DNA of 64,000 nucleotides from Flavobacterium sp. SUN052 (lineage in GTDB: Bacteria > Bacteroidota > Bacteroidia > Flavobacteriales > Flavobacteriaceae), in contig NZ_JAPQNS010000001.1 in assembly GCF_028867935.1 (NCBI RefSeq), positions 930,001 through 994,000 of the forward strand, given 5' to 3'. The notes under the pieces were generated by a model, which had not been told where the DNA came from, did no database searches, and saw only the letters and a program-made list of their open reading frames with translations. This document shows positions 28,277 through 40,261 of this stretch, piece by piece. A program made the position numbers and the translations under genes. The first letter of the stretch is position 1, and each line of letters starts with the position of its first letter.

Positions 28277-28340
28277 CAAAGGTCTTCCTATTTCTTTGGC
28301 CGACTGGTATACAGATTACGGGGATTATTACCACTATTAC
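28277..28340 (-). promoter_or_regulatory. Promoter and two-box AraC-type operator of the aldo/keto reductase operon
   Basis: Read on the minus strand: GTAATAGTGGTA (28340-28329), nine bases, GTAATCTGTATA (28319-28308), 23 bases, then GACCTTTG (28284-28277), a near match to the -7 consensus TAnnTTTG. The same boxes with identical spacing precede the genes starting at 32272 and 40138. Transcription would begin near 28270, leaving a short leader before the ATG at 28255. Confidence 0.75.
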
Positions 28341-28381
28341 TGATTCGAATAAACGCATCAGGTAGCGTGTTCGGAAAGTGG

Positions 28382-28389
28382 TAATTTTG
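28382..28389 (+). promoter_or_regulatory. -7 box of the araC gene at 28412
   Basis: TAATTTTG fits TAnnTTTG exactly and ends 22 bp before the start codon. It directly follows GGAAAGTGGTA, which resembles one half-site of the shared operator (TGGTA end), so autoregulation is possible. Confidence 0.5.
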
Positions 28390-28411
28390 AGGTAGGTAAA
28401 TCAACAAGGCA

Positions 28412-29314
28412 ATGGATACGCTACGACGGTTCGAGACAATCACTGATTACAACGTATTTAATAATCACGAAACGTTACACCCGCTCATCAGTGTAATCGA
28501 CTTCTCAAAAGCAGACCCCCGAACAGGCTCGGGTATGTATTTTGGCTTCTACGCCATTCTCCTGAAAGACGTAAAATGCGGAGATCTGGTGTACGGCCGC
28601 CATACGTATGATTATCAGGAAGGAACGCTGGTTTTTCTGGCACCGGGTCAGGTAGCGGGCATGAATAGTAATGGAGAGACCTATCAGCCTAAAGGCTACG
28701 GGCTGGTGTTTCACGCAGATTTGATTCACGGCACGGCCCTCGGGCGGCATATTCAGGACTATACATTTTTCAGTTACCAATCCAACGAAGCCCTGCACGT
28801 ATCGAAGCGGGAACGGGAGTTGGTGCTGGATTTCTTTGCGAAAATCGAGTACGAATTGCAGCATGCCATCGATAAACACAGTAAGAAGCTGATTGTCAAT
28901 AGTATTGAACTGTTTTTGAACTATTGTGTCCGTTTTTATGACCGCCAGTTTATTACCCGAAACCATGTGCATCAGGGCGTTTTAGAGCGTTTCGAGAACT
29001 TGCTGAACGCTTACTTCCAGAGTGACAAACCGCAAATAATCGGGTTGCCTTCAGTAGCTTATTGCGCGGGTGAGTTGAACTTGTCGGCCAATTACTTTGG
29101 CGACCTGATCAAGAAAGAAACCGGCAAAACGGCGCAGGAATATATTCAAACTAAGCTCATCGACGTGGCCAAAGAACGCATATTTGACCAGAGCAAGTCT
29201 GTTAGTCAAGTGGCCTATGATTTAGGCTTTAAGTATCCCCAGCATTTCATCCGGGTATTTAAGCAGCGGGTTGGCCAGTCACCCAATGAATATAGGACGC
29301 TGCATGAAAATTGA
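28412..29314 (+). CDS. AraC-family transcriptional regulator (copy 1)
   Basis: 300 residues. The N-terminal half is a cupin-like sensor domain (TLHPLISVIDFSKA, GTLVFLAPGQVAGM, YGLVFHADLIHGTALGRHI). The C-terminal half has the two AraC helix-turn-helices: AGELNLSANYFGDLIKKETGKTAQEYIQTKLI and KSVSQVAYDLGFKYPQHFIRVFKQRVGQSPNEYR. It is divergent from the aldo/keto reductase operon with a two-box operator between them, which fits a YqhC-like local activator. The protein at 31185-32072 is a close paralogue, sharing the FFSYQSNEALH and NSPNYFGDLIKKETGK type segments. The inducer is unknown. Confidence 0.93.
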   Translation: MDTLRRFETITDYNVFNNHETLHPLISVIDFSKADPRTGSGMYFGFYAILLKDVKCGDLVYGRHTYDYQEGTLVFLAPGQVAGMNSNGETYQPKGYGLVFHADLIHGTALGRHIQDYTFFSYQSNEALHVSKRERELVLDFFAKIEYELQHAIDKHSKKLIVNSIELFLNYCVRFYDRQFITRNHVHQGVLERFENLLNAYFQSDKPQIIGLPSVAYCAGELNLSANYFGDLIKKETGKTAQEYIQTKLIDVAKERIFDQSKSVSQVAYDLGFKYPQHFIRVFKQRVGQSPNEYRTLHEN

Positions 29315-29492
29315 CAGCTTGTAAATTTGTCCAACAATTTAGGGGCAAAAATTCACCATAATCGGTAAAAGCAACTTTTACGTTTCGTTAACATTCTTTT
29401 ACTGTCCCGCTAACACATCTCAGAACAAAGACTGGTAGGTTTACGGTACGCCGTTGCGGCCCAAATTAGTTGGAATAAAAAAAAGAAAAAGG

Positions 29493-31163
29493 ATGAACTG
29501 CTCCCGCGTATATGCTCTGCTCATACTGTCTGTTTTTCTCACTTCCTGCGGACAAAACCAAACAAACGTACCGAAAGAACCAAAAGGTAAGATCGAGTCC
29601 GAAATCAACGACATAGGGCCCAATATAACGGTTCGTACTATTAAAAAAGGCAGAGATGGCACCCTGTTAATTGCTGGCCCGAATAACTCATCCTCATCAT
29701 TTGGTGATGTTTTTCGATACGACCCTACCAGGGCCGGGGAAAAATCGTTCACTAATCTCACCAGTAAAATAGGTTCGCACCGATTCTGGGATGTCCTGGA
29801 AGATCGACGCGGACATTTTTGGTTCACTACTACTGATTCAGGTGTTTATTATGACAACGGGAAATCCATTCAACATTTCACTACAGCCGAGGGACTTGCC
29901 AATAATCAGGTTTTGTCTGTTTATGAAGATAAAGCCGGCATTATCTGGTTGGGCACTGGCGGTGGAATAAGTCGTTATGATGGTAAATCGTTTCGAAATT
30001 TTACTTCTCCGAACGCCCCGCTTTTTTATAAAGAACCGGATTGGAATAATGACATTCACACAATCTTTGAAGATAAAACAGGAAAATTGTGGGTTGGCAC
30101 AAGGGGCGACGCCTTCGTTTATGACGGGAAGAAATTCACTACGTTAACCCACAAAGGCGAACCCTTTCTCGACGTTTGGAGCATAATCGAAGATCGGAAA
30201 GGCACTATTTGGCTCAGTGGTTACAATGGATTTAGAGGCAGCTCGGGTGGCCTCTATCGCTATGACGGCAGTACCTTTACCAAGGTGTCAGAGCGGGGGG
30301 CTTATGCTATAATGCAGGATAAAAAAGGAGACATCTGGACTACTGGTCCCGTAAATCCGGCTAATTGGACGGTGCAGGCAGTATCCCGTTATGATGCAAA
30401 TTCCCTGTATAATGAGAAACCCATTGTAAGCGAAATTAGCTCAGGAAAGGCTTTCTATGGACTTTTGGAAGCGACCGATGGCAGTATTTGGTTTGGCGAT
30501 GCGACCGGCGTGTATCGGTATGATGGAAAGACCATCACGGACTTTTATAACAAAGCGGGTCAGAAAAAATATAGCATCGATACGAAGCAAAGTGTCGTAG
30601 TCTGGAAAGGGTCTATGGTGCTTGGTGGCTGGGAAGGTTCTACGTTTCGTGGTGATGGTTTCCTTACAGGGGACGTCGATCTGGTAAAAGGAGAATTATT
30701 GATTGAGAATCGTCAGCTAGTGGGCGGTGCCGCTGAAGTCGACATGGCTACCATCGAACAAAAATTTGACGATCAACTTCCCCACAATAAATTACCACCA
30801 TTTTTTGATGTCAAAAAATTTCCTGTTTCTACATTCACCATCACGAAGGTTGAAACAGGGAATGATAAAAACACAAACGTTCCAACTGATGGAAGTGTAA
30901 GAGTTACAAGGGAAGGAAATATAAAGGTTACAGGGAACCTGACCATAGAAGGTATCACGAAGGCAGTTACTTTTCCAGCCCAACTATATTTCAAGGACGG
31001 AATGGACGGAACTGTCGAGCTGAATGGCGCGCTGGTCGTTGATCGAACTGATTGGGGTATCGATTCTGGATCAGAAAAGAACTTTTTTAAGTCTGGTGAT
31101 GGGACTATTTCGGACGACGTTAAACTGTTTATAAAAATCGTCGCAAAAAAAATGAACAGGTAG
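29493..31163 (+). CDS. Lipoprotein with two-component-type beta-propeller repeats fused to a YceI-like domain
   Basis: About 556 residues from the ATG at 29493 (an earlier start at 29454 is in frame). The leader ends in a lipobox (FLTSCGQ), so it is probably a lipoprotein. Residues about 45-365 hold repeats of the regulator-propeller kind, recognised by VYEDKAGIIWLGTGGGISRYDGKSF, FEDKTGKLWVGTRGDAFVYDGKKF and similar units. From about residue 370 the chain changes to a YceI-like lipocalin fold: YSIDTKQSVVVWKGSM, then GELLIENRQLVGGAAEVDMATI, FPVSTFTITKVE and VTGNLTIEGITKAVTFPA. YceI proteins bind isoprenoid or fatty-acyl chains. I do not know this combination as an established family. The 178-bp region upstream holds a possible -7 box (TAAATTTG, 29322-29329) and the inverted repeat GTAAAAG-caa-CTTTTAC at 29365-29381. 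Confidence 0.82.
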   Translation: MNCSRVYALLILSVFLTSCGQNQTNVPKEPKGKIESEINDIGPNITVRTIKKGRDGTLLIAGPNNSSSSFGDVFRYDPTRAGEKSFTNLTSKIGSHRFWDVLEDRRGHFWFTTTDSGVYYDNGKSIQHFTTAEGLANNQVLSVYEDKAGIIWLGTGGGISRYDGKSFRNFTSPNAPLFYKEPDWNNDIHTIFEDKTGKLWVGTRGDAFVYDGKKFTTLTHKGEPFLDVWSIIEDRKGTIWLSGYNGFRGSSGGLYRYDGSTFTKVSERGAYAIMQDKKGDIWTTGPVNPANWTVQAVSRYDANSLYNEKPIVSEISSGKAFYGLLEATDGSIWFGDATGVYRYDGKTITDFYNKAGQKKYSIDTKQSVVVWKGSMVLGGWEGSTFRGDGFLTGDVDLVKGELLIENRQLVGGAAEVDMATIEQKFDDQLPHNKLPPFFDVKKFPVSTFTITKVETGNDKNTNVPTDGSVRVTREGNIKVTGNLTIEGITKAVTFPAQLYFKDGMDGTVELNGALVVDRTDWGIDSGSEKNFFKSGDGTISDDVKLFIKIVAKKMNR

Positions 31164-39572: not shown

Positions 39573-39589
39573 GATTTTTTTTGGTCATT

Positions 39590-39676
39590 AAATGGTCATT
39601 TGCTTCGCGTCATGCATACGGTCATTTGTCGCAAAAACAATAAGTGACGACTAATGACTGGGAATGACAACCAATG
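39590..39676. repeat. Cluster of GGTCATT/AATGAC repeats inside an operon spacer
   Basis: The 110-bp gap between the two molybdenum hydroxylase genes contains TGGTCATTAAATGGTCATT, further CGGTCATTTGTC and GTCATG copies, and inverted forms AATGACTGGGAATGACA. A very similar unit, TGGTCATTAAGTGGTCATT, lies at 46552-46570, also between two genes of one operon. The inverted order could fold into a hairpin in the mRNA. Confidence 0.6.
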
Positions 39677-39682
39677 TCCAAT

Positions 39683-40138
39683 TTATTTGGTAGAGGCTGA
39701 TTTGATGGCGTCCTTGATGCGCAGGTAGGTGCCACATCGGCAAATGTTGCCACTCATGGCGGCATCAATATCGGTGTCGCTAGGCTTTGGGTTGCTTTTC
39801 AGCAGCGAAGCCGCACTCATGATTTGTCCCGCCTGACAGTAGCCACACTGCGCTACATCGTGTTCCAGCCACGCTTTTTGCACCGGATGGTCGCCGTTAG
39901 CCGACAGGCCCTCGATGGTAGTGATGGCTCCCTTGCCTACAACTGAAACCGGCAGTTGGCAGGAACGGACAGCCGTGCCGTCGAGGTGAACTGTGCAGGC
40001 TCCGCACTGGGCCATTCCACAGCCATATTTGGTCCCGGACAGGTCCAGATGATCACGCAATACCCAAAGCATTGGCGTCGCTGGATCGACATTCACCTGC
40101 CTGATTTTTCCGTTAATTTTTAGATTGTATGTAGCCAC
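39683..40138 (-). CDS. (2Fe-2S)-binding small subunit of molybdenum hydroxylase
   Basis: 151 residues, paralogous to the protein at 1268-1756. First cluster: [19 protein letters not shown] plus a further cysteine in RSCQLPVSV. Second cluster: [14 protein letters not shown] and [15 protein letters not shown]. It passes electrons from the molybdenum centre of the downstream subunit. It is the first gene of a two-gene operon, with the shared AraC-type operator and -7 box upstream and a carboxylesterase gene divergent. Confidence 0.93.
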
Positions 40139-40197
40139 AGTGATCGGGTTTGTTTGTTACAGATAGCGTTTAAGATCGTAGGTAATTCTGGACAGTA

Positions 40198-40261
40198 CAA
40201 AGGTCTTCTTTTTGACGGTAGAGTCGGGTATACAAATTACGGATAATGCTACCAATTTTAC
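40198..40261 (-). promoter_or_regulatory. Promoter and two-box AraC-type operator of the molybdenum hydroxylase operon
   Basis: Read on the minus strand: GTAAAATTGGTA (40261-40250), nine bases, GTAATTTGTATA (40240-40229), 23 bases, then GACCTTTG (40205-40198). This is the third copy of the arrangement at 28277-28340 and 32171-32234, with the same -7 variant as the first. No AraC gene is adjacent here, so a regulator from 28412 or 31185 probably acts in trans. Confidence 0.75.

Follow-up and report, generated by a model that had tools for sequence, protein, structure and literature searches.

A two-half-site operator tied to one clade of AraC-family regulators in Flavobacterium sp. SUN052 and other Bacteroidota

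Introduction

Regulators of the AraC/XylS family at large (AraC, RhaR, MarA/SoxS) share two helix-turn-helix (HTH) motifs and a cupin-type sensor with the proteins described here. AraC-type regulators of Bacteroides have been described as using tandem sites in direct repeat at intervals of about 21 bp, and paralogous regulators with one motif and a joint regulon have been proposed there earlier (PMC3870299, PMC3878776). In E. coli, the gene of the AraC-family activator YqhC points away from an operon that encodes a DkgA-type aldo/keto reductase, and YqhC activates yqhD and dkgA (PMC8262776). Here, we report three operators in a 64-kb window of Flavobacterium sp. SUN052 (64,000 nucleotides of contig NZ_JAPQNS010000001.1), together with the genes of two AraC-family regulators, A and B. 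In all likelihood, these sites serve an AraC/XylS activator clade that includes A and B and that would replace the -33 contact of the promoter, probably in response to reactive carbonyls or quinone-like compounds.

The window resembles the described systems in two respects. The operators have the same direct-repeat design of about 21 bp as those of Bacteroides RhaR and the hybrid two-component systems (HTCS), and here too an AraC-family gene points away from an operon whose reductase is of the DkgA type (44% identical to DkgA). Nevertheless, there are clear differences. The first lies in the regulators themselves. YqhC has the AraC_N domain PF06719, whereas a Pfam scan detected none in A or B, and the BLASTP similarity of YqhC to A is confined to the HTH region (28% over 80 residues). 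The HTCS fuse sensor, kinase and receiver to an AraC domain, whereas A and B have only a cupin-like sensor, seen in a model of A, and the HTH pair; Pfam returned HTH families only and no periplasmic sensor, kinase or receiver domains in A (300 aa) and B (295-311 aa). The second difference is in the targets: as described, the Bacteroides systems serve sugar and polysaccharide use, unlike the targets here, and unlike in the YqhC regulon the site stands on several operons, including those of molybdenum hydroxylases. Judged by these comparisons, YqhC is the nearest functional parallel and not an orthologue of A or B, and the A/B clade differs from the family at large in having its own operator and its own targets. 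We found no description of this regulon in the literature searched, whose coverage left out most subscription journals. A sequence-only reading of the window had taken it as known that AraC proteins bind two direct half-sites about two helical turns apart; this design is indeed on record for AraC-type regulators of Bacteroides (PMC3870299, PMC3878776), and the sequence points, very probably, to a real control circuit that uses it here.

Results and discussion

Operators in the window and in the genome

Each of the three operators is 33 bp long and contains two direct half-sites whose starts are 21 bp apart, and in all three a gap of exactly 23 bp precedes a -7 box (Table 1). The sequence-only reading had proposed these positions, this half-site spacing and this gap, and the window sequence agrees with it on each. 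Its two 12-mers of one form were only half correct: the first half-site fits GTAAnnnTGnTA, but the second is GTAAnnTGTATA, with TG one base earlier, and for this reason the unrefined pattern matches each window site with two mismatches. The spacers and flanks differ among operators 1, 2 and 3, as it had noted of the intervening bases in arguing that they are not recent copies. At up to three mismatches, the pattern matches the window four times, versus a mean of 0.29 and a largest value of 2 over 100 shuffles; the fourth match, at 40384, has three mismatches and lacks a second half-site of this kind. Scored with a matrix derived from other species, no stretch of the 64 kb apart from operators 1-3 attains 12 bits.

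Across the whole 8.1-Mb genome, the refined pattern has ten matches at up to three mismatches, the three exact ones being the window operators, compared with four when it is read backwards. The genome scan that had been proposed, motif plus -7 box at 23 bp, gives five matches at up to two mismatches against none in the reversed control. One additional site (C25:2501, plus strand) precedes an aldo/keto reductase, with a -7-like box at 23 bp, and lies 6.6 kb from the AraC paralogue of the same contig. This operator also lies a short way upstream of a divergently oriented gene for the large subunit of a molybdenum hydroxylase (PF02738, PF20256; C25 132-2564), so that the pairing of reductase and molybdenum enzyme occurs again. 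The other (C8:3936, minus strand) precedes a cyclophilin-like gene and adjoins a broken araC copy, again with a -7-like box at 23 bp. The locus (C8 1500-4700) is a decayed copy with several stops in araC, a cyclophilin-like open reading frame (PF18050) and a nearby transposase pair (PF13565, PF13358 DDE_3); because of the broken araC and the transposase pair we dropped it as a working operon, while still counting it as a site. A C35 match with two mismatches was dropped as an operator since the -7 box at 23 bp is absent, and four matches at three mismatches (C1:864508, C3, C5, C23) were set aside. The other full-length paralogues (37-41% identical; C1:1608355, C25, C19, C37) were set aside, having no such operator within 350 bp upstream.

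Conservation across relatives

A search with protein A returned 419 confirmed loci; the best 80 of these, at 71-95% identity, span Spirosoma, Larkinella, Fibrivirga, Chitinophagaceae, Rufibacter, Pontibacter, Mucilaginibacter, Chryseobacterium and others. In 80/80 loci, araC is preceded at 66-88 bp by the operator, which reads away from it, and a -7-like box (.A..TTT[GA]) follows at 23 bp in 67. The conserved columns over the 80 loci are AATCA-GTAATaTTGGTAg and CCGTAATcTGTATAcc, a variable stretch, and then gACCTTTg; since the first two extend further than had been assumed, the half-site is longer than 12 bp. Run over the 1.42 Mb of the 80 loci, a matrix built from them picks out 125 sites, whereas the reversed sequence contains none. 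As many as 46 of the 125 are not the query araC's own, and 42 of these keep the 23-bp gap exactly; three of the 46 adjoin an araC, and among the other 43, with no araC detected beside them, 39 keep it. These further sites precede varied genes. The motif is thus not scattered at random, nor is it lost upstream of orthologous operons, being kept before the aldo/keto reductase operons and part of the molybdenum operons.

The operator and the AraC clade

On sequence comparison, the operator is tied to the A/B clade of AraC proteins. Among loci fetched by protein search only, none of them one of the 80, it accompanies 40 of the 42 AraC proteins whose identity to A or B is 55% or higher, one of three with 50-55% identity and none of 32 below 50%. 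All 175 AraC proteins with at least 200 bp upstream give 125/128, 2/5 and 0/42 for the same classes, a count that is partly circular because 80 of its loci had served to train the matrix and a pattern match had led to some of the others. In a class-level sample of 295 genomes, the window's own included, the full pattern at up to two mismatches occurs in 18 of the 22 other genomes with an araC of at least about 52% identity and in 9/272 without a close araC, and the protein is encoded in every one of the 12 genomes that match with one mismatch or none (Fisher for co-occurrence, 1e-18 and 9e-16). The presumed recognition helices, assigned from what is known of the DNA-contacting helices of the AraC family, vary with the operator: 110-118 of the 118 clade members share F229, G230, K274, Y275, H278 and R281, whereas proteins outside the clade mostly have other residues there, Y275 being present in 18 of 43 outsiders as well. 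The earlier interpretation is therefore supported as to the tie with the A/B clade and the conservation before orthologues, but not as to the extent of the regulon, which two more genome sites make wider than three operons.

A fixed distance to the -7 box would equally be expected if the conserved block were the promoter of an alternative sigma factor, or the site of some other protein unrelated to the AraC proteins. Such a block would hardly consist of two direct repeats 21 bp apart; nor would it disappear below 50% AraC identity, co-occur with araC in genomes and change along with the recognition-helix residues, and we consider this explanation very improbable.

Several observations weigh against the operator being so strictly built and so strictly tied to the clade. 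The 80 loci were found through araC and are mutually related, so that their counts are not independent; a -7 box is not recognisable at nine of the 80 proximal sites and stands at 22 bp at four; the pattern at up to two mismatches is missing from 4 of the 22 genomes with a close araC; and nine genomes have the pattern but no close araC, all at two mismatches and background-like. Moreover, the operator without its -7 box, at up to one mismatch, gives 13 matches in 59 relatives versus 24 reversed-control matches in all 60 genomes. Of the 13, six adjoin a close araC, one is in a genome with araC elsewhere and six are background-like. An excess of control matches over the pattern matches outside the window's own genome is what chance similarity would produce. 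However, the pattern without the -7 box is unspecific in AT-rich relatives, and the later counts accordingly use the box or the matrix; with the box, 295 genomes give 49 pattern matches against one control match. Given this, the differing spacers and flanks, the shuffles and the empty reversed sequence of the 80 loci, we rejected the chance and mobile-repeat readings and regard chance or recently copied DNA as having a negligible probability.

Regulators A and B

Both regulators have the C-terminal double HTH (PF12833/PF00165), with PF12833 at 69.1 bits in A and 71.7 bits in B for a cut-off of 33.6, and the model of A contains the cupin-like sensor expected of an N-terminal sensor/dimerisation domain. 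No NCBIfam equivalog attains its cut-off for A or B, and the Foldseek and VIA lists indicate no particular ligand. Cysteine C56 is present in 114 of 118 clade members versus at most 4 of 43 proteins outside, and C172 in 117/118 versus 19/43. B is 59% identical to A, and only two orthologues of B, 79% and 68% identical, stand out in a 395-genome phylum sample. The window genome has been put in one genus with genomes of 1.8-5.7 Mb, itself being 8.1 Mb, and this placement may be mistaken: A shares 95% identity with an AraC protein of Fibrivirga algicola, and the two orthologues of B are in 7-Mb genomes of another family.

It is probable that operators 1 and 3 belong to A and operator 2 to B. How the operators differ bears on whether A and B serve one regulon. 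At the fifth base of both half-sites, the operators of B and both its orthologues have A where A-type operators have T, which speaks against a single uniform operator, and their tail is different; the A-type matrix scores operator 3 at 46.7 bits but operator 2 at only 29.7; and the B-type sites of relatives precede OMP32272 or cyclophilin-like genes. Two separate regulons, with A in charge of the operons for the aldo/keto reductase and the molybdenum hydroxylase, B confined to its own cupin/CMD operon and little cross-binding, are therefore a serious possibility, although we lean against it. The recognition helices had been said to look alike, and they are in fact nearly the same: between 87 A-clade and 3 B-clade proteins, the one consistent difference from residue 205 onwards is Q to L at position 242. 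Furthermore, in loci found through A, molybdenum operons are preceded by sites with A as the fifth base of the first half-site. Cross-talk between A and B is likely; one regulon is possible, and so are two overlapping regulons, given the variant operator of B and its two orthologues.

Target genes and gene neighbourhood

The first genes downstream of the 125 sites were assigned by BLASTP to the window proteins, within 300 bp in the main count and at any distance in another; two sites have no entry. Within 300 bp, the 78 araC-proximal sites precede aldo/keto reductases (37), esterases (13), DUF4440 proteins (12), molybdenum subunits (5), alpha/beta hydrolases (2), a hexapeptide protein (1), unassigned genes (4) or none (4). 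The 45 other sites precede aldo/keto reductases (15), molybdenum subunits (7), flavodoxins (3), esterases (2), DUF4440 proteins (2), a CMD protein (1), a cupin (1), unassigned genes (11) or none (3). The 'COesterase' labels of relatives are mostly about 30% identical and therefore denote a different esterase family. A Pfam scan covered 20 of the 24 unassigned or weakly assigned first genes with coordinates, adding XdhC/CoxI (molybdenum enzyme maturation), short-chain and zinc dehydrogenases, more aldo/keto reductases, alpha/beta hydrolases, metallo-beta-lactamase-fold proteins, an F420-oxidoreductase-like protein and DUF3737; one of the 20, in locus L211, matched no Pfam family. In three genomes of other families (L219, L224, L225), the operator, with two mismatches and the 23-bp gap, stands before DUF3737 genes.

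Aldo/keto reductase orthologues in the 80 loci have the operator within 300 bp upstream in 43 of 49 cases. Only 7 of 35 [2Fe-2S] subunit orthologues have it directly upstream, which counts against a general molybdenum link and limits it to certain lineages. The closest solved relatives of the large subunit are aldehyde dehydrogenase/oxidase subunits and the reductase is 44% identical to DkgA, which together suggest that the regulon handles reactive carbonyls; this chemical role is read from broad enzyme families only, a further point on the opposite side.

The genes around the operators are collected in Table 1. The likely start of the aldo/keto reductase is the ATG at 28255, because the TTG at 28279 falls within the -7 box, and genes like those of operon 1 come after the operator in relatives as well. 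The first gene of operon 2 (32272-33075) matched no Pfam or NCBIfam family; a 60% identical relative of its product sits after a B-type operator in locus L207. Between both araC genes (29454-31163) is one protein with two-component-regulator propeller repeats and a YceI-like domain.

Table 1. Operators, promoter boxes and genes, in window positions
Feature	Position	Strand	Remarks
Presumed operon 1, rest: two DUF4440 proteins, flavodoxin, alpha/beta hydrolase, CMD protein, cupin	23143..27391	-	
Aldo/keto reductase, DkgA-like, first gene of operon 1	27407..28255	-	44% identical to E. coli DkgA
-7 box of operator 1, GACCTTTG	28277..28284	-	23 bp past operator 1
Operator 1, A-type	28308..28340	-	half-sites GTAATAGTGGTA and GTAATCTGTATA, 21 bp apart; 56.0 bits with matrix from other species
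Presumed own promoter of araC A, TAATTTTG	28382..28389	+	TAnnTTTG 40-42 bp from operator in 59/80 loci, reversed control 2/80
AraC-family regulator A	28412..29314	+	300 aa; operator upstream of 80/80 orthologues
AraC-family regulator B	31185..32072	-	likely start ATG 32072, longest frame to 32120; 295-311 aa
Operator 2, B-type	32171..32203	+	half-sites GTAAAAGTGGTA and GTAAAATGTATA; 29.7 bits; B-type variant at two orthologous loci
-7 box of operator 2, TACCTTTG	32227..32234	+	23 bp past operator 2
Presumed operon 2	32272..35892	+	32272-33075 protein, cyclophilin-like, hexapeptide transferase, cupin, CMD plus ABM protein
Molybdenum cofactor-binding large subunit	37314..39572	-	closest solved sequence: aldehyde dehydrogenase large subunit (8gy3_C), then PaoC
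[2Fe-2S] subunit of molybdenum hydroxylase, first gene of operon 3	39683..40138	-	GTG start
-7 box of operator 3, GACCTTTG	40198..40205	-	23 bp past operator 3
Operator 3, mostly A-type	40229..40261	-	46.7 bits

Proposed mechanism

The usual distance from the -33 to the -7 element is about 19-21 bp. A TTG lies 17-23 bp before the -7 box in only 4 of the 125 sites, so that the -33 TTTG of the Bacteroidota primary promoter consensus (PMC2483708) is absent here. Compared with the -7 TAnnTTTG of those promoters, operators 1 and 3 have GACCTTTG and operator 2 has TACCTTTG, the first base being G in 58 of the 80 loci. Because the -33 box is absent, activation is likely. We propose that an AraC dimer with a RhaR-like cupin sensor would bind the two direct half-sites, which are separated by two helical turns and so would present the same face of the DNA. 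The half-site nearer the promoter ends 23 bp before the -7 box, beside the place of the absent -33 box, where the protein could stand in for the -33 contact and switch the operon on. The same site, 41 bp from the presumed -7 box of araC A (TAATTTTG), may also adjust araC. The probable role would be a response to reactive carbonyls or quinone-like compounds, which would be handled by aldo/keto reductases, flavodoxin, molybdenum aldehyde-oxidase-like enzymes, CMD/cupin proteins and esterases.

Some relatives of AraC act as repressors when no ligand is bound, and the 41-bp distance from araC's own presumed -7 box would also suit a protein that represses these promoters or acts both ways depending on ligand. 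Nevertheless, the site stops upstream of the -7 region and does not cover it, and the missing -33 TTG and the rigid 23-bp spacing are as expected of an activator that touches the polymerase, which makes repression improbable.

Conclusions

To our knowledge, little has been mapped of how environmental Bacteroidota regulate metabolism other than that of sugars. A broader reading, which we hold only tentatively and think rather doubtful, is that of a widespread Bacteroidota reactive-carbonyl regulon, convergent with that of YqhC, in which one rigid operator couples reductive and oxidative detoxification and the clade cysteines possibly sense an electrophile. If this is true, the reductive arm would comprise aldo/keto, short-chain and zinc reductases and flavodoxin, the oxidative arm would be the molybdenum aldehyde-oxidase-like enzymes, and the regulator may sense the electrophile through C56 and C172. 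With its sharply defined operator, one regulator clade and a constant distance to the promoter, the regulon can be recognised in sequence data across Spirosoma, Larkinella, Chitinophagaceae, Pontibacter, Mucilaginibacter and others, and would assign a common control to poorly understood enzymes such as the CMD, cupin, DUF4440 and cyclophilin-like proteins and the molybdenum hydroxylases. It also suggests how an activator may substitute for the -33 element of this phylum's promoters.

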